Source: Candidatus Acidiferrales bacterium (lineage in GTDB: Bacteria; Bacteroidota; Ignavibacteria; Kryptoniales; JAKASW01). From it: 64,000 nucleotides of DNA. A program made the position numbers and the translations under genes. The notes beneath the pieces are model-generated. The model was not told the origin of the DNA. It ran no database searches and saw only the letters and a list, made by a program, of their open reading frames with translations. Position 1 is the first letter of the stretch, and each line of letters begins with the position of its first letter. The stretch is from assembly GCA_035515795.1 (NCBI GenBank), contig DATJAY010000039.1:1-64000 (forward strand). The letters run 5' to 3'. Of the stretch, positions 48,578 through 62,235 are shown piece by piece.

Positions 48578-48987
48578 CGCGAGCAATCTTTATCGATCGC
48601 GACGGAAAGATTAATATCGACAAGGATCGCCTCACCGGTTCTGATCAAGTCGAATTCATACAAAATTCACCCGAAGCAATTTCTTCAGCTAATAATCTCG
48701 GATTGAAAGTCGTAGTAATCTCAAACCAGTCCGGAGTTGCCCGCGGTCTTGTGACGACCGGGCAAGTTGACCTCGATTTGTCTTCATCTTTTGTGGTAGG
48801 GGATAAATGGAGCAACGTAAAATACGGTGATAATGCAGCAGCAATAACCTCACTCGTCATGACCGGCTACGGCAAAACAGATTGCCAGCGGTGCATTGAC
48901 GACCGAATCAAAATAGATTATCTTGCTGAAAGCCTTTACGATTTTGTCACTAATTTTGTCAAGAAAAAAATTGAAAAGAATAATTGA
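48574..48987 (+). CDS. Shortened HAD phosphatase (histidinol-P/heptose-bisphosphate phosphatase-like), probably defective
   Basis: A 137-residue relative of GmhB/HisB-N phosphatases, which are usually ~180 residues. The nucleophile motif AIFIDRDGKIN (usually DRDGTIN), the motif II SNQSGVARG and the motif IV FVVGDKWSNV are present. The ~55 residues normally between them, including the CxH zinc loop and the conserved Lys of the CRKPKPG segment, are missing: TTGQ runs straight into VDLDLSSSF. The deletion keeps the frame. Without motif III it should be inactive, so either a recent loss or a non-catalytic remnant. Overlaps glgA (GTGA). Confidence 0.7.
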   Translation: MTRAIFIDRDGKINIDKDRLTGSDQVEFIQNSPEAISSANNLGLKVVVISNQSGVARGLVTTGQVDLDLSSSFVVGDKWSNVKYGDNAAAITSLVMTGYGKTDCQRCIDDRIKIDYLAESLYDFVTNFVKKKIEKNN

Positions 48988-50197
48988 ATTTTCTCTAGTA
49001 GCATGTGCCTTCGCATTGTGGATAGCTGGTTGCACAAACAGGTTTAACCAAACAGGATCGTGGCTTGTTACTAGCGACACCACGGTGACTCCGCATTTTT
49101 ATGATTCAGATTCGCTGAGAGCAAAAGTGACCACGTCGGAAGTTAACCAGGGGTTGGCCAACGGCTCCGGTCTCTTTGACACTGTGCTATGCCTGGGTAA
49201 GGTTCCATGGTCAGAAGCGGATATGCTGTTGAATTTTGTTCTGCCTGATTCTATCTACAATGCGACCACTATCATGTCGGCGCAGGTAATATTGCGGCGC
49301 ACCGCTTATGTTTTACAGGCGAACGGATCTAATGTGAACGCTTATGATGTCCACAATTTACAGTTTGAAGGCTATGCATTCGATACGTCATGGAACTCTG
49401 CCACATTTACCTGGGACAGCGTTGCACTTTTGCAGAGTGAAGGGAAGATTGAAAGCGCAAACATAGTTCTTACGTCGGCATCGTTTGTTAATGATTCGGA
49501 TGTCGTGATTCAAATCGACACGGGTCTGGTAAGGCGCTGGGTGAAAGCGACTCAAGATAGTAATTTTACCAATGATGGTTTCATAATAAAACCAGCCAAC
49601 ACATCGGGCGTAGTATCAGTGTATTCATCCGCATACTCCGGTACCGGATATGAGCCTACGATTGAAATCTACTGCGTTATCAACGGAGTATCTGATACCG
49701 TCACTTCCACCACAAGCGCTTCGACCTACGTGGCGAACACTTCGATTTCTTCTCCCTCACAGACATTCGCAGTGCAAAGTGGTACAGGGCTTCACGGAAA
49801 CATCGTTTTCGATCTGAGCCGTATTCCGAATTACTCCGTCGTGAACTTCGCACAGCTTACGTTATATACTAATTCTTCAGATACTCTTTATTCCGGTCAG
49901 TCGTCGGACTCTCTCTGGGCATATTATCAGACAGACCCGTCTACGCACGCTCTTAGTCTCGCCGGCGCTGCAGTCAGCACGCGTGACAGTGTTGTCAGGA
50001 ATAAGTACACATTTCCCGTAGCATTGATAGTTCAGCAGATGCTTAGCAACCAAGGAAACTATGGTTATGGATTCATGATTACTCGATATGACGATTATAA
50101 CAGTATCGATTCACGCTTCATCTATAACGAGAATGCCCCTGATTCTTTGAAGCCGAGACTTTCTATAATCTATGCACCGGCGGTAAGGAAAAAATGA
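48971..50197 (+). CDS. Beta-rich outer-membrane lipoprotein, function unknown (DNRLRE-like)
   Basis: About 408 residues from a TTG at 48971; another TTG at 48923 is possible. The signal (LKRIIEFSLVACAFALWIAGC) ends in a lipobox. The mature part is beta-rich, with two similar halves separated by a TSTTSASTYV linker. It resembles the beta-sandwich arrangement of DNRLRE/carbohydrate-binding-like secreted proteins (FTWDSVALLQ, GYEPTIEIYCV, RLSIIYAP near the ends). It overlaps the barrel gene downstream by 4 bp, so the two probably work as a pair at the outer membrane. Confidence 0.65.
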   Translation: MKRIIEFSLVACAFALWIAGCTNRFNQTGSWLVTSDTTVTPHFYDSDSLRAKVTTSEVNQGLANGSGLFDTVLCLGKVPWSEADMLLNFVLPDSIYNATTIMSAQVILRRTAYVLQANGSNVNAYDVHNLQFEGYAFDTSWNSATFTWDSVALLQSEGKIESANIVLTSASFVNDSDVVIQIDTGLVRRWVKATQDSNFTNDGFIIKPANTSGVVSVYSSAYSGTGYEPTIEIYCVINGVSDTVTSTTSASTYVANTSISSPSQTFAVQSGTGLHGNIVFDLSRIPNYSVVNFAQLTLYTNSSDTLYSGQSSDSLWAYYQTDPSTHALSLAGAAVSTRDSVVRNKYTFPVALIVQQMLSNQGNYGYGFMITRYDDYNSIDSRFIYNENAPDSLKPRLSIIYAPAVRKK

Positions 50198-51498
50198 AAC
50201 GAAAATCAATTTTATTACTATTCCAGCGGTCCATTATCAGGGCCGCCCTTCTTGTGTTGCTGTTCTGCACCTCGAACGTTTGTGCGCAGGATGGAACACC
50301 GCTTGCGGCAAAAGGGATCGGCGCGTTCACGAGTTTCGGAAGCAGCTGGTCTGCAGGAATGGGCAATTCAGGCATCGCACTGACCGGAAACGGGTTCCTA
50401 AGTTGCTACAATCCTGCAACATGGTCCGGATTACAGAACGTGCAATTCACAGTGTCTTATGACTTTTCCGGTCTGACTTCCAGGGATGATTCAACTTCTT
50501 TGTCTTCGTACTATGCGAACGGAAATTTCGGCGGAGGAATTTTTGCTCTGCCGATCGATGCAAACCTTGGCATGACCGTAGCGGCCGGTTTTACTCCGCT
50601 TACATCCTACAATTTTTCGATCAACAGTTCGTTTGACTCTAATTATGTTCCCACTGTCCCCTCATACGCTTACAAGTCTTCAGGTTCCGGCGGATTGGGC
50701 GAAGGCTTTGTGGGGATGAGCTTCTCACCGTTCCACGATGTAAATCTAGGTGGGATGTTCCAGTATGCATTTGGCAGGATAGAAAATACGACCACCGTGG
50801 ATTTCAACAATTCATCATATACAAATACGTACTCCGACTACAGCTCATACATGCAAGGTTCAAGCGGAACGATAGGAATTGTCCTGGACAGCCTCGATAA
50901 GCTGGTACAGACGGATTTCTTGAAAGGCGTTTCTCTCGGAGGATTTTATAAATTCGCTTATAATCTCAGGGGAACCTCTGTCCTGGAAAATCTTTATGAG
51001 GATACTCTTTATTCTCCGTTTTCGCAGGGTGCAAGAGGGTATATACCCCCCGAATTTGGAATCGGAATTTCAAAATCATTCAGCAACCGTGTTAGGGCAA
51101 TGCTTGATATCAGGACGCAGTCATTTTCAAAATATTATGACACGTATACTCCGGCTGGCTCGTTAAAAGACGCCCTTTTTATTGGAGGGGGTGTGGAGAT
51201 TCTTCAAGGACGGGAGTTCAGTTCGCTTTTCGATAAGAGAATCCTGCGTGCGGGGCTTTATTATCAAAAGACTCAATTTGTTGTGCGAACTAAATCCGGA
51301 CAGGATAAGCAAATGGATGAATTTTTCTTGACTGCCGGCGTTGAGGTTCCGCTGAGTTTCTCTTCAACAGCATCTATTTCTGCTCAATACGGCTTGCGTG
51401 GATTATCAAGCGATTTTCTATTGAGAGAACAAATCTTCCGGCTGTATTTTTCAATCACGATGGGCGAAGGATGGTTTGCCCGTCCTGAAGGAGACTGA
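50194..51498 (+). CDS. PorV/FadL-like outer-membrane barrel protein
   Basis: A 434-residue outer-membrane protein. The signal peptide (AALLVLLFCTSNVCAQ) is followed by GIGAFTSFGSSWSAGMGNSGIAL and CYNPATW, the N-terminal pattern of PorV/FadL-type 14-strand barrels in FCB bacteria, where an N-terminal helix plugs the barrel. Many alternating strands follow, with RLYFSITMGEGWF at the end. Could be a porin, hydrophobic-substrate channel or part of a type IX-like export route; nothing in the window decides this. It overlaps the upstream lipoprotein gene and is 2 bp before rpiB. Confidence 0.75.
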   Translation: MKRKSILLLFQRSIIRAALLVLLFCTSNVCAQDGTPLAAKGIGAFTSFGSSWSAGMGNSGIALTGNGFLSCYNPATWSGLQNVQFTVSYDFSGLTSRDDSTSLSSYYANGNFGGGIFALPIDANLGMTVAAGFTPLTSYNFSINSSFDSNYVPTVPSYAYKSSGSGGLGEGFVGMSFSPFHDVNLGGMFQYAFGRIENTTTVDFNNSSYTNTYSDYSSYMQGSSGTIGIVLDSLDKLVQTDFLKGVSLGGFYKFAYNLRGTSVLENLYEDTLYSPFSQGARGYIPPEFGIGISKSFSNRVRAMLDIRTQSFSKYYDTYTPAGSLKDALFIGGGVEILQGREFSSLFDKRILRAGLYYQKTQFVVRTKSGQDKQMDEFFLTAGVEVPLSFSSTASISAQYGLRGLSSDFLLREQIFRLYFSITMGEGWFARPEGD

Positions 51499-56041: not shown

Positions 56042-58642
56042 ATGCTCCATCCGCACATTAGAAAGCTAACGATTCCGTTATTTTTCTTACTTTTCTCCTC
56101 TGTGTTTGCCCAAGAAGTTAGTCCTCAGGATGATCTGAGACAAAATGGGCTAACATACGTTCAGCTTACACCGACGAGGGGAAAAATCCTTCTCGACGGC
56201 GAGTGGCAGGCTTCCGCTGATAACGGCAAGACTTGGAAACTTGTGAATATCCCTGGAACGTTCGACGACAAGAATGTGATTTTTGAAAAACGCATTTTTA
56301 TTCCCGATGAGGTGGTATCTAAGAATGTTTTTACGCTGACTCTTGGGACAGGAGGGACGACAACCGAGGTAAGAGTGAATAATGAATACGTCGTTCTTCA
56401 TAACGGGGCATACTCGCAATTCGAAGTGAAGATACCGGACAGGCTTCTCCAATCAGGTGATGAGAATTTAATTCAAATAATTTGTAACAATGAGTTGAAC
56501 CCCGTTTCCTCTATTCCATTGAAACAGCTTGCCTTCCAGCCGAAATGTTACGGCGGTTTGTTCAGGGATGTCTATCTTGAGGTGAAGCCTCCGATCTATA
56601 TGGATAGACCTTCAATAAAGATTTCCATGAATCCGAATAACAGCGTCGCAACTTTAGAAAGTGATGTTGTTGTCTATGCGTCGGATTACACAAGGTACGG
56701 GTTGGATTCGACATCGACCTCGCTGTCGTTACGGGGTCACGCAGAGATAATAGACAAATCGACGGGGAAAGTGGTCGCAAAATCTGCCGATAATTCCTTT
56801 AGTCTTGCTCAGAATCATAATACTAAACTGCATTTCTCGATGCAGGTTCAAGACGTTAACCTCTGGTCGCCTGCAAGTCCCAATTTATATGAGGCAGTTT
56901 TTTATTTAAACAAGTCGAGCAAAGGCTCGGATCTGATAGATGAGTATTCAGAGAATATCGGTTTCAGATCCTTTCAGCTTTCTAACGGAAAATTCTTTCT
57001 GAATTCAGACCCGATTTTCATAAAGGGCGTTAATTACGTTGTCGACTATCCTAAAGCAGAAGCCGCAGTCGACGACGTCCAGATAGAAAAGGACATCGCT
57101 GTTATTAAGACTCTCGGTGCTAATGCGATCAGAGTGGTTAACTATCCGCCTTCACCGGAATTGCTCGACCTTTGCGACCGGTTCGGCTTGATGGTTTTTG
57201 AAGAGACGCCCCTTACCGATGCGCCGCCTTCAGTTATAGAGGACAGCCAGTACAAAAGAGCATTGCAGAACTATCTCAGGGAATTGATATCCTTAACGTG
57301 TTCTCACCCGTGCGTTGTCGCGGTGTCGGCAGGAAGCAACCTCGATCCAACATCGAAGGCGACGGTAGATCTTATTTCATCGATGACTTCGATTGTTCAT
57401 GACGATGCGGATAGACTGGTCTACTACACGCCTCTGGCCGGTCCGGTTGACGGGATTGCTACTGATGCGGACTTTGTGGGCTTGGACTTAACGCAGTTCA
57501 ACTCAGCCAGGAAGCTCAAAGATTTTTTGACAAATCTTTCGCAGCAGTACCCGAGCACCGTGTTTTGGATTTCTTCCGTAGGAACTCAATGCCAAATGAG
57601 CAACCATGACGGTTACTCCGACCCTCTTTCTCTTGAACATCAGGCAAGATACCTGGTGGATGCTTACGGAGCAGCGGAGGAAGCGAATGTCGCCGGCGTT
57701 TCGATAAATAGTTTTGCCGATTGGGAGGGTGCGACGCCGCATCTCATGCAAAACGGACACCCGTATTTATATACCTTCGGTCTGGTAAGCTATTGGCGGG
57801 AAAAGCGCCCTGCATTTATGGCCGTCCGTTCGCTCTTCAGTGACGAGACTCTTCCTATTTTGCCGATAGGAAATTATGCGGATTCGCCGCCGATAATTTA
57901 CGTGATATTGTCGACGCTGCTTCTTGTGATGGTGACGTATCTTCATTACAGTCGAAGGTGGTTCCGCGAAAGCGCTGCACGGGCAATATTCAGGCCGTAT
58001 AATTTTTTTGCGGACATACGCGACCAAAGGATGATCTCTGCTTTCCAGACTTTCACGGTGCTGCTGCTGGTCGCGGCAGGAATTGCAATTTATCTATCGT
58101 CTCTCTTTTATGCATATCGTGACAACTACGTTTTCGATCGCCTTCTTGGGATTCTGATACCGAGCGATTTTCTAAAAATAAAAATTGATTACTTAGTCTG
58201 GCATCCCGCGGAATTTATTCTCGCGTTCACCGCCTTTTGTATGGTCGTAATTTCATTTATCACTCTGGTCATTAAACTCTTTTCCCTCATCGCAAAAATA
58301 CGGCTCCAGCTGGTAAGCGCATTTACGGTCGCAACGTGGTCGACACTTCCGATGGCGGTTTTAATTCTGGTTGACATGATCCTTTTTAGACTGCTCGGCG
58401 ATTCAAGATTCGTCTGGGGAGCCTGGATCGTTCTTGTCCTCCTATTCTTGTGGAGTCTTCTCAGATTATTCCATGGCATCGGCGTGATATATGATCTTCC
58501 GACTCTGCGGGTCGGCATCATCGGCTCGGTATTTTTGATAATAGTGATCGTACTGTTGACTGTTTACTATAACGGAACAGACGGCGTTCTCTCCTACACG
58601 AAATTTTTCTATAATTTCTTATCTCAGAACAAGTTTATATAG
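56042..58642 (+). CDS. Membrane-anchored GH2-like pseudoglycosidase
   Basis: An 866-residue protein. A Sec signal (LTIPLFFLLFSSVFAQ) is followed by a GH2 sugar-binding jelly roll (ILLDGEWQASADNGKTW, VRVNNEYVVLHNGAYSQFEV), an immunoglobulin-like domain (~190-300), and a TIM-barrel-like domain (KFFLNSDPIFIKGVNYVVDYP, TLGANAIRVVNYPPSPELLDLCDRFG). Where GH2 enzymes have the acid/base NE, this protein has SAGSNLD; where the nucleophile Glu is expected it has ISSVGTQ. Residues ~620-866 hold six hydrophobic helices. It is probably not a hydrolase but a membrane-bound glycan-binding or sensing protein. Confidence 0.72.
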   Translation: MLHPHIRKLTIPLFFLLFSSVFAQEVSPQDDLRQNGLTYVQLTPTRGKILLDGEWQASADNGKTWKLVNIPGTFDDKNVIFEKRIFIPDEVVSKNVFTLTLGTGGTTTEVRVNNEYVVLHNGAYSQFEVKIPDRLLQSGDENLIQIICNNELNPVSSIPLKQLAFQPKCYGGLFRDVYLEVKPPIYMDRPSIKISMNPNNSVATLESDVVVYASDYTRYGLDSTSTSLSLRGHAEIIDKSTGKVVAKSADNSFSLAQNHNTKLHFSMQVQDVNLWSPASPNLYEAVFYLNKSSKGSDLIDEYSENIGFRSFQLSNGKFFLNSDPIFIKGVNYVVDYPKAEAAVDDVQIEKDIAVIKTLGANAIRVVNYPPSPELLDLCDRFGLMVFEETPLTDAPPSVIEDSQYKRALQNYLRELISLTCSHPCVVAVSAGSNLDPTSKATVDLISSMTSIVHDDADRLVYYTPLAGPVDGIATDADFVGLDLTQFNSARKLKDFLTNLSQQYPSTVFWISSVGTQCQMSNHDGYSDPLSLEHQARYLVDAYGAAEEANVAGVSINSFADWEGATPHLMQNGHPYLYTFGLVSYWREKRPAFMAVRSLFSDETLPILPIGNYADSPPIIYVILSTLLLVMVTYLHYSRRWFRESAARAIFRPYNFFADIRDQRMISAFQTFTVLLLVAAGIAIYLSSLFYAYRDNYVFDRLLGILIPSDFLKIKIDYLVWHPAEFILAFTAFCMVVISFITLVIKLFSLIAKIRLQLVSAFTVATWSTLPMAVLILVDMILFRLLGDSRFVWGAWIVLVLLFLWSLLRLFHGIGVIYDLPTLRVGIIGSVFLIIVIVLLTVYYNGTDGVLSYTKFFYNFLSQNKFI

Positions 58643-58689: not shown

Positions 58690-61600
58690 ATGTTTCTCTC
58701 CAAGTTAGAATTATTCGGCTTCAAATCGTTCGCGACAAAGACGGAGCTTACGTTCAACGGCGGGATAACATCCGTCGTCGGACCGAACGGGTGCGGCAAA
58801 ACCAACGTACTCGATTCAATACGTTGGGTGCTCGGCGAGCAGCGTACCAGTATGCTTCGAAGCGATTCCATGGAGAACGTGATCTTTAACGGCTCTGAGA
58901 ACCGGAAAGCTCTTGGAATGGCAGAGGTAACAATCACTTTGAAAAATGACAAGGGACTGCTTCCGGTAGATTATTCCGAGGTAAGCATAACGCGCCGGGT
59001 GTTTCGCTCCGGCGAGGGAGAGTACTTTGTCAACCGCAATCAGTGTCGCCTGAAAGACATCCAGGATATGCTTATGGATTCGGGCATGGCTCCAACGGCA
59101 TATTCCGTGATTGAACTTAAGATGGTCGAGGATATTTTGCGCGAAAATGCGGACGAGCGAAGAAAAATGTTCGAAGAAGCCTCAGGTGTGACAAAGTACA
59201 AGGCAAGAAGGAAAGCCGCTCTCGGTAAGCTTGACGACGTCCGGAGGGACCTATTGAGGGTGAACGATCTGATCGCCGAGATTGAGAAGAAAGTGAATTC
59301 CCTTGAGCGGCAGGCGAAAAAGGCGGAGCACTACAAGCAGTTTATGGACGAATTGAATCTCCTCGAGCGGCAATATTTGTTCGCCGAGTACAGCTCGGTT
59401 TTGTCTAAAATTGCGCCGCTTAGAGAAAGTTTGTCCGTGAGCGAAACCGAAAAGGCAAACTCGCTCGATGCACTTTCACATCAAGAGGAGATCTTAAAGC
59501 TGATTCGTTCCGAAATCGATGATTGCGAAAAGAGCCTGTCAATTTTGCGCCAGCAGCGGGCGACCAAGCAGACCGATCTTCACGCAGTCGATGAGGAAGT
59601 CGCAGTATTGAGCGAACGAAAACGCGGACTCAACGAAAATGTTTCTTCACTCGATAAGCGGAAAATTGATCTCGCTGCAAAGAACGAGTCGCTTTTGTCG
59701 CAGATGAATGAGCTCGAATTGAGCCTTGATGAATCGATCGAGGAAGAGAAGGAGCTTTCTGTTTCTCTGGCGACCGAACAGGAGGACTTTAGAAATTCCG
59801 AACAACAGCTCTTCTCCGCAAGAGAGAAATCAAATGCGAGCCATGATGATCTGATACAGATATTGAATGGCCTTGCGGTCAAGCAGAACGAGCGGGAGCG
59901 ATGCCATGCCCGGCTTGAGAGACTCCAGTCGCACAACGAGGAGCTCGCGATCAGGATGAATCAGCTTGAGACCGAGAAAGACGAGTTATCATCGAGGGTC
60001 GAAGGCTCGCGTGCGGAAAAACAAAAAATCATCGATGGAATAGAGAGTGAGAAAAAAAACCTCACTGATTTCGAAAGACATCGTGAGGAGTTGTTCAGCG
60101 AAGTGGAGCGAGAAAAGCAAAGAGCGCAGAAACTTCGGGACCGACAGCAGGCAAATGACGCAAGAGCGGATTTCTTGAACGGTCTCGTCGAACATTTGGA
60201 AGGCGTTCCGGATGGCGCGAAGGCGCTTGCGCGCGGCGAGGTTGCCGGTCTCCCTAAGTTTGAAATTCTAAGCGACATTTTTTACGTGGAGCCGGATTAT
60301 CGAATTGCCGCGGAATCGATTCTCGGTGAGGCATCGAATTTTCTTGTAGCTCCCGACGAGCATGCCGCGCTGAGCGCAGTGGATGCACTTAGAAAGCGTG
60401 ACCTTGGAAAAGTAACTTTTATTTGTCGCGATAAAATAGTCTCTCCGGCGCCGCGGCCGAACCCGGCCGCACAGAGACGGCTGATGGATCATGTATCGAC
60501 TTCTACTGAGAACATTCAGATTGGGAAATATTTTTTTGAAAATGTTGCGGTCGTCGAAAATTTTTCCGAGGCCGAGAAAATTCTGCAGGAAGATGGCTCA
60601 GTTACGTGCGTAAATTTTTCGGGAGATGTTTTTTCTTCAAAAGGTATAATCAGGGGCGGAAGCACGCGTAAGACCGAAGGCGGCAGGGTCGGAAAATTAA
60701 AACAACTCGAAGAACTCAAGAGTGAAAGTCAAAAATTATCCGGCGAATTGTCCGGCGTCGAAAGAGAGATTGCCGCACTTCAATCGCAAATTGATGGAAT
60801 TCCGATCAAAACCGGGAACGATACTCTAAGGAATCTTGAGCTGCAATTGGCGCGTGTTGAGCAATCTAATGTCGAAAGCGAGCGAAGCCTTCAAAACGTC
60901 GAAACCCAAATTGTCGACATGCATGCCAGAGTTATGAAATTGGGAACTGAGATTTCCGATGCGGACGCAGAGCTTGCTAAGGTCGAAGCCGCTTTGAGTG
61001 AAGTGAGCCTGCGCAAAAGTTCGTCCGAAGATGATTATCAGAAAACTCTGGAGGCGGTTAAGACGATTGAGGATGCCTACAGGCAGAAAAACGATATCTT
61101 GAGGGAAGTCCAGGCACAGCACATCGAGTGCGTCAACAAGCTGAACTTTCTTAAACGGGAGATAGAAACCTCACGCCAGCAGGTCGCCACAAATCTCGAA
61201 GGAATTTCGAGAGCGGACGAGGACATCGAGACAGCAAAGCTTGCAATCGAACAAGCAGGCAAGAAATTAAGTGAACACGAAGATCGGCGGGTAAACTTGC
61301 GCTCTGAAATCGACGCCCTGGATGCTCAGACGAATGGTTTGATGGTGAAGCTGTCTTCGAAGAAAGACGAGAGTGAAGTTGAAGAGAAAGAGTTACGGGA
61401 TGCTCGCGCGAATCACGAGACGGCAATTGAGGCTGTCCATCAGGTAACTCTGAAGATTGGCGAACTTGATGCCCATGCGGATGCGATTCTGGAGCGCGCG
61501 AAAGAAGAATACAATTTGGATGTTTCACAGCAGACGGCGGAATCCATGAATCTTTCTGCAGGCTTTGATGCGGGAGCCGCTCATGAGCGCATAAACTACC

Positions 61601-62235
61601 TCAAAGGAAGAATCGAATCGTTCGGACCAGTCAACCTCGTCGCTTTTTCGGAATACACTGAAGAGAAGCAGAGGCTGGATTTTCTCACCGCTCAGCGTGG
61701 GGATTTGCTGGAAGCTGAGAAGACTTTGAAAGAAACCGTCGAGGAGATAAACCGTACAGCGCACCAGAAGTTCAAGGATACTTTCGACCAAATTTCGGAA
61801 AATTTTAAAGTAACATTTCAAAGTCTGTTCGACGGTGGAGAAGCTGAGCTCCGGTTGGAGGAGAATGTGGATCCGCTTGAAGCAAAGATAGAGATAATGG
61901 CGAAGCCCGCTGGAAAGAAACCGCAGTCGATCGACTTGCTTTCCGCTGGAGAAAAAACTTTAACCGCTATTGCATTGCTTTTCTCCATCTATCTCGTTAA
62001 GCCAAGCCCGTTTTGCATTCTAGATGAAGTCGATGGTCCGTTGGACGATAACAATACCGACAACTTTGTAAGAATGATCAAGAGATTTTCCGGAGATACG
62101 CAGTTCATTGTAATTACTCATAACAAGCGTACCATGGAAGCCGCCGACACTTTGTACGGAGTGACGATGGAGGAGCAGGGAGTTTCAAAAGTCGTCGCGG
62201 TTAGATTTGTAGACGATTGGGTGGCAAAGGAATGA
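58690..62235 (+). CDS. smc: Chromosome segregation protein SMC
   Basis: An 1181-residue SMC ATPase. Walker A is VVGPNGCGKTN (residues 31-38 for GxxxxGKT), Q-loop region SIRWVLGEQ, hinge at ~515-660 (GVPDGAKALARGEV ... IIRGGSTRKTEGGR), and two long coiled-coil arms. The C-terminal ATPase has the signature LLSAGEKTLTAIALL and Walker B CILDEVDGPLDD. The signature is LSAGE instead of LSGGE. SMC organises and segregates sister chromosomes with ScpA/B, not encoded here. It starts an ATGA-coupled run into the next three genes. Confidence 0.95.
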   Translation: MFLSKLELFGFKSFATKTELTFNGGITSVVGPNGCGKTNVLDSIRWVLGEQRTSMLRSDSMENVIFNGSENRKALGMAEVTITLKNDKGLLPVDYSEVSITRRVFRSGEGEYFVNRNQCRLKDIQDMLMDSGMAPTAYSVIELKMVEDILRENADERRKMFEEASGVTKYKARRKAALGKLDDVRRDLLRVNDLIAEIEKKVNSLERQAKKAEHYKQFMDELNLLERQYLFAEYSSVLSKIAPLRESLSVSETEKANSLDALSHQEEILKLIRSEIDDCEKSLSILRQQRATKQTDLHAVDEEVAVLSERKRGLNENVSSLDKRKIDLAAKNESLLSQMNELELSLDESIEEEKELSVSLATEQEDFRNSEQQLFSAREKSNASHDDLIQILNGLAVKQNERERCHARLERLQSHNEELAIRMNQLETEKDELSSRVEGSRAEKQKIIDGIESEKKNLTDFERHREELFSEVEREKQRAQKLRDRQQANDARADFLNGLVEHLEGVPDGAKALARGEVAGLPKFEILSDIFYVEPDYRIAAESILGEASNFLVAPDEHAALSAVDALRKRDLGKVTFICRDKIVSPAPRPNPAAQRRLMDHVSTSTENIQIGKYFFENVAVVENFSEAEKILQEDGSVTCVNFSGDVFSSKGIIRGGSTRKTEGGRVGKLKQLEELKSESQKLSGELSGVEREIAALQSQIDGIPIKTGNDTLRNLELQLARVEQSNVESERSLQNVETQIVDMHARVMKLGTEISDADAELAKVEAALSEVSLRKSSSEDDYQKTLEAVKTIEDAYRQKNDILREVQAQHIECVNKLNFLKREIETSRQQVATNLEGISRADEDIETAKLAIEQAGKKLSEHEDRRVNLRSEIDALDAQTNGLMVKLSSKKDESEVEEKELRDARANHETAIEAVHQVTLKIGELDAHADAILERAKEEYNLDVSQQTAESMNLSAGFDAGAAHERINYLKGRIESFGPVNLVAFSEYTEEKQRLDFLTAQRGDLLEAEKTLKETVEEINRTAHQKFKDTFDQISENFKVTFQSLFDGGEAELRLEENVDPLEAKIEIMAKPAGKKPQSIDLLSAGEKTLTAIALLFSIYLVKPSPFCILDEVDGPLDDNNTDNFVRMIKRFSGDTQFIVITHNKRTMEAADTLYGVTMEEQGVSKVVAVRFVDDWVAKE

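Follow-up and report, generated by a model that had tools for sequence, protein, structure and literature searches.

The locus and its product

The window, a stretch of 64,000 nucleotides from a Candidatus Acidiferrales bacterium (assembly GCA_035515795.1, contig DATJAY010000039.1), contains upstream of smc a gene for a GH2-like protein with a membrane domain. The following features were assigned (all on the forward strand):

56042..58642, whole gene; ATG start, 866 amino acids; pseudo-GH2 domain fused to a six-helix membrane domain
56042..56113, signal peptide, about residues 1-24; sequence MLHPHIRKLTIPLFFLLFSSVFAQ; helix 10-19 in the model
56159..56590, GH2 N-terminal jelly roll, about residues 40-183; weak Pfam match PF02837, model and VIA alignment
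56591..56965, GH2 Ig-like domain, about residues 184-308; Pfam PF00703, 45.2 bits, cut-off 23
56966..57862, GH2 TIM barrel, about residues 309-607; Pfam PF02836, 64.2 bits, and model
57338..57340, codon of N433, position of the GH2 acid/base Glu; alignment with Glu-bearing relatives
57575..57577, codon of S512, position of the GH2 nucleophile Glu; alignment with Glu-bearing relatives
57602..57631, residues 521-530, with the family motif NxNGYSDPxS that closely follows the lost nucleophile; 163 orthologues
57896..58627, membrane domain, residues 619-862, six transmembrane helices, distantly Yip1-like; models and Pfam Yip1
57953..58030, predicted cytoplasmic motif RRWFRESAARAIFRPYNFFADIRDQR, residues 638-663; R647, D658 and R660 in 98-99% of 163 orthologues
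58690..62235, smc, 47 bp downstream on the same strand; Pfam SMC_N; synteny conserved across classes

The reading frame is intact, as it is in 12 congeneric orthologues with identities of 60-72%, and dN/dS is low for both parts of the protein (about 0.05 and 0.04), although these values are indicative only because dS is saturated. The intact frames of the 12 congeners and the low dN/dS rule out a sequencing error.

The AlphaFold2 model, built with 74 sequences, has a mean pLDDT of 91.2 and a pTM of 0.86 and runs from a signal helix (residues 10-19) through the beta domains and a TIM barrel, which extends to about residue 607, to the membrane helices. Jelly roll, Ig-like domain and TIM barrel were recovered in the GH2 order by Pfam, AlphaFold2 and VIA. 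The Pfam spans are 229-309 for the Ig domain and 312-465 for the barrel; the GH2_N model (PF02837) reached 21.8 bits, under its cut-off of 28. In VIA-align residues 40-602 matched the GH2 beta-galacturonidase 6ncw_D with a Z of 37.9 and an rmsd of 2.8 over 523 aligned residues, a score with which many further GH2 enzymes tie, and Foldseek related residues 40-607 to GH2 enzymes at an E of about 1e-39. The GH2-like order and the signal peptide had both been proposed in a sequence-only reading, and both hold, the latter from the sequence as well as from the helix in the model.

The protein thus has its domain order, its fold and many structural residues in common with GH2 beta-glucuronidases, beta-galacturonidases and beta-galactosidases (6ncw, 3cmg, 5z1a, 6xxw), to which it aligns with Z-scores of about 35-38 over some 520 residues. 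Unlike these enzymes, it lacks the catalytic Glu pair, carries a six-helix membrane domain and is encoded by a single-copy gene beside smc. The best curated-model matches were beta-glucuronidase and beta-galactosidase, all far under their cut-offs, so that annotation as an enzyme would mislead for most members of the family.

Loss of the catalytic residues

In GH2 enzymes the acid/base Glu, preceded by Asn, stands at the end of strand 4 and the nucleophile Glu at the end of strand 7. At these sites the window protein reads AVSAGSNLD (S432-N433) and ISSVGTQ (S512), so neither Glu is present. Alignment with Glu-bearing relatives places N433 and S512 in the acid/base and nucleophile positions, with no Asp or Glu substitute at either one, and in the model they stand at the ends of strands 425-434 and 508-513, the sites of the catalytic residues in clan-A enzymes. 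The absence of both glutamates, first noted from the sequence, is thereby confirmed. In the same alignment three GH2 paralogues from the same genome (L174, L180 and L181) retain both catalytic Glu, and a further one, the truncated gene L175, shows the acid/base Glu only.

Both Glu are absent in all 12 congeneric orthologues. The pair is likewise absent in 157 of the 163 distinct orthologues; the six proteins that keep it all belong to the Kryptonium-like family f2 (family codes come from the genome search). Taken singly, the acid/base Glu was found in 32/163 and a Glu in the nucleophile column in 22/163, and an acid at the nucleophile position is missing in 139/163. The homologues share the C-terminal helices and most of them the Glu losses, two points that the sequence-only reading had proposed to check, but the losses are not a trait of the whole family: one sister family (Kryptonium, f2) retains the pair, an observation that the same reading had named in advance as counter-evidence. 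The GH2 barrel model scores 160.6 bits in an f2 protein versus 64.2 bits in the window protein, and the domain of the Kryptonium family may still be enzymatic. TEYG or TEFG is kept without the acid/base Glu in f28 and f43, which belong to other classes, and in one member of f15.

On a tree built leaving out the catalytic columns, the minimum number of changes was eight for the acid/base residue, four for the nucleophile motif and one for the pair; if the ancestor had the residues and regain is disallowed, the losses number 25, 15 and six, respectively. Such counts alone do not decide between gain and loss, but loss is favoured by the pair-bearing GH2 outgroups and by the scattered remnants. 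Since other classes still show traces of the nucleophile motif (TEYG), the best-fitting history is that of a catalytic ancestor followed by repeated loss. The earlier proposal, that a former enzyme was converted into a membrane-bound protein, is in line with this distribution of the pair over outgroup GH2 proteins and Kryptonium and of its remnants over other clades. Because some relatives have retained the catalytic pair, the transition from enzyme to non-enzyme can be examined by comparison among orthologues.

Conservation elsewhere in the GH2-like part is high. Within NxNGYSDPxS, G524 and S530 are conserved in 99% of the 163 orthologues, N521 and Y525 in 89% and D527 in 88%. The motif occurs in most lineages, those with the Glu pair included; f10 and f21 have GYLN or GYLV instead. 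Positions occupied identically in 98-100% of the 163 orthologues are G172, D300, N361, G524, S530, D560 and G580 in the GH2 part and R647, D658, R660, W766 and R808 in the membrane part; W275 and G382 in the former and N654 and D661 in the latter are also among the most conserved. D527 was considered as a substitute catalyst and rejected, since whole lineages are without it.

The membrane domain

Six long hydrophobic helices were predicted by AlphaFold2 (residues 619-637, 667-691, 722-750, 769-784, 788-817 and 821-847), and the domain modelled alone had a pLDDT of 91.6. The six membrane helices of the sequence-only reading therefore stand, but its description was incomplete, as several amphipathic or interfacial helices are present in addition, two of which (639-650 and 652-662) lie on the predicted cytoplasmic side. 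Among the charged residues of the protein, the best conserved lie in the loop that bears the motif (638-663), which holds seven Lys/Arg residues.

A Foldseek search with the membrane-domain model gave no match at E<=0.001, VIA reached at most a Z of 5.5, to unrelated helical bundles, and the domain profile found chance matches only among PDB sequences. Despite the absence of a solved structural relative, the domain may have a known fold. The Yip1 family (PF04893) resembles it weakly, scoring around the Pfam cut-off of 28.6 bits (the whole protein scored 24.8, the isolated domain 28.7, and the genome search gave 29.6). Yip1 is weakly matched by 43 of 74 family members at E-values up to 0.01, and comparison of the family profile with local Yip1 proteins gave 68% probability over 97 columns. 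Unlike Yip1, the family of the window protein has a conserved RxYNFFADIRDQR motif and is fused to a GH2-derived domain.

DUF4271 (PF14093) is, like the domain described here, a single-copy membrane domain, but it occurs without a GH domain. Many Bacteroidia-like families encode it adjacent to a hemD-like gene (L203-L214, L230-L247), and at cut-off it never occurs in one genome together with the GH2-membrane family. Two of the 74 family members match DUF4271 in Pfam; profile comparison with the membrane domain gave no match using 12 sequences and 26% probability with larger sets, and the literature on DUF4271 yielded unrelated mentions only. That DUF4271 is a putative counterpart of the membrane domain is possible but unproven; as the counterpart in the Bacteroidia it was not adopted, given the weak profile evidence and its occurrence also without SprA (in the Bacteroides ihuae control and in G101).

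Distribution and reduced versions

A match at E<=1e-35 was found in 83 of the 296 sampled genomes of the phylum (69 in the class of the window, the other 14 outside it), with almost never more than one copy per genome. Named records with the family include Candidatus Kryptonium, Chrysopegis, Ignavibacteria and Kapaibacterium. Within the class 69 of 73 genomes have a strong match, the exceptions being G044, G223, G028 and G037. In G044 (f16), a one-contig genome, the gene is frameshifted into two overlapping frames (L070:4830-7557). G223 has neither a strong family match nor a detectable smc, which makes it probable that the assembly lacks the locus. The remaining two, G028 and G037, are members of f11, and G028 has the C-terminal membrane domain only. 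The record JADZEY010000123.1 (L163), titled Armatimonadetes, carries the Bacteroidota family; its title is probably wrong.

Two kinds of reduced version were observed. In f11 the membrane domain stands alone, as a protein of about 250-285 residues that is encoded immediately 5' of smc in three genomes. Families f33, f37, f44 and f46 encode proteins of 536-623 residues with a signal peptide, the barrel and the membrane domain but no beta domains; we infer that these families are Rhodothermia-like, a label that, like "Chlorobia-like", derives partly from gene context and SprA content. Profiles of the short and long families align with 99.9% probability (hhalign, E 1.2e-36 over 484 columns). Pfam gave no match in three tested short-lineage proteins (of those beside ftsZ or uppP, L293 and L294 were tested), and the NGYSDP motif is absent from the short lineages. 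The short-family profile had strong matches in f27, f32, f45, f47 and f48 and a weak, two-part match in f36. Since f11 has the membrane domain alone and the short lineages drop the two beta domains, the predicted membrane domain is the constant module of the family, with a nearly constant barrel and dispensable beta domains. Judged from these comparisons, the family consists of predicted single-copy inner-membrane proteins of the Bacteroidota outside the Bacteroidia and the SprA-less, Chlorobia-like genomes. The literature, of which coverage was partial so that absence weighs little, contained no GH2-Yip1 fusion and no inactive membrane GH2 protein in these bacteria.

Genomic context

The gene is followed by smc in 149 of 204 loci (redundant genome copies counted), with a gap of -23 to 377 bp and a median of 6, and this adjacency extends over most families of the window's class and to f25, f28, f43 and f55. 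Frequent further neighbours are TpiA, GatB and lpxB/lpxK (named from sequence and in part HMM-tested). In the window itself the neighbours are genes for TatC, a polyprenyl synthetase and a patatin; smc, the gene of an MtnX-like phosphatase and lpxB follow downstream. Two other genes of the window encode products without a Pfam match: an exported protein resembling an outer-membrane barrel (50194-51498) and, upstream of it, a lipoprotein-like protein (48923-50197).

Other lineages have other neighbours. In the division cluster of f44 (L294, L295 and L307) the short orthologue follows ftsZ directly, in f37 (L293) uppP is directly upstream of it, and in f15 and its relatives the gene precedes hrcA and grpE. 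The gene sprA, which encodes the outer-membrane translocon of the type IX secretion system (TIGR04189), is divergent from the orthologue in f15, f8 and f16; this was verified by HMM at four loci (L043, L052, L257 and L266) and by coordinates in further genomes. The position beside smc, ftsZ, uppP or sprA marks the protein as a candidate component of envelope growth, division or secretion that has been overlooked so far. As the neighbourhoods differ (smc, hrcA-grpE, ftsZ, uppP), an inherited old gene order could explain much of the synteny.

A putative pseudoglycosidase of the cell envelope

We consider it probable that the gene encodes a conserved inner-membrane envelope protein with a role in envelope growth or division, of which the periplasmic GH2-derived domain binds rather than cuts. 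The signal peptide would export this domain to the periplasm and the six C-terminal helices would hold it in the inner membrane. The barrel, presumably no longer able to cleave glycosides, could then bind or make contact with a partner protein or a glycan of the envelope, and its state might be passed through the membrane domain to the cytoplasmic face. Sensing or scaffolding would be further possible roles, and the receptor or scaffold of the sequence-only reading is a sensible though unproven proposal. Envelope growth or division as the process is suggested by the neighbours smc, ftsZ, uppP, lpxB/lpxK and sprA. A further-reaching version, which we put forward as rather doubtful, would make it a core envelope protein of most non-Bacteroidia Bacteroidota, with either the GH2-derived part or a bare TIM barrel joined to the six-helix membrane domain, encoded beside smc or ftsZ and linking the periplasm to cell division or chromosome segregation; it would be an ex-glycosidase in which the pair disappeared on at least six separate occasions, provided that the ancestor possessed it.

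The membrane domain might itself be the working part, for instance a transporter, a lipid-carrier handler or an assembly factor, with the GH2-derived part as an accessory cap that can be trimmed. The stand-alone domain beside smc in f11, the lack of beta domains in f33, f37, f44 and f46 and the invariant charged residues of the membrane domain are in line with this arrangement, which nevertheless seems somewhat unlikely: the barrel is kept in nearly all lineages, G524, S530 and D560 are near-invariant and dN/dS is low, so that the barrel is not mere ballast. An accessory function in type IX secretion would agree with the divergent sprA in f15, f16 and f8, and also with the presence of SprA in every sampled genome with an A3 membrane-domain match and the lack of both in f30. 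However, nearly all families except f30 have SprA, so that the joint absence may be a single event, the gene lies away from type IX secretion genes in most lineages, and Bacteroidia-like families have SprA and no detectable orthologue; we regard such a function as unlikely.

Continued glycosidase activity by other means, either through substrate assistance or with D435, D527 or D560, is very improbable. The frame of the GH2 pocket is retained, D527 and D560 are well conserved and Kryptonium has the classical pair, but D527 is missing in f10, f21 and f12 (GYLN, GYLV), the short lineages are without NGYSDP, D560 and D477 are ordinary GH2 positions in active enzymes too, and the great majority of orthologues has no acid at the nucleophile position. 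The loss of catalytic residues and the few orthologues with a stop or frameshift (G044, G333) might also be taken for decay of a pseudogene or for an assembly error, an explanation hardly worth entertaining in view of the intact and strongly constrained congeners, the synteny and the single copy.

The best-known pseudoglycosidases are those of animals and parasites; the family described here would be a bacterial, lineage-wide, single-copy pseudoglycosidase on the membrane. The Klotho proteins are GH1-derived, membrane-bound pseudoglycosidases that form parts of receptors, and use the dead barrel outside the membrane for binding (PMC7828330). Common to Klotho and the window protein are a retained fold, the loss of catalytic residues and a barrel held at the membrane, in the window protein on the predicted extracytoplasmic side; the window protein differs in its bacterial GH2 origin and in being multi-pass, whereas Klotho is single-pass. 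By analogy, the working mode of Klotho could serve as a model for the window protein.
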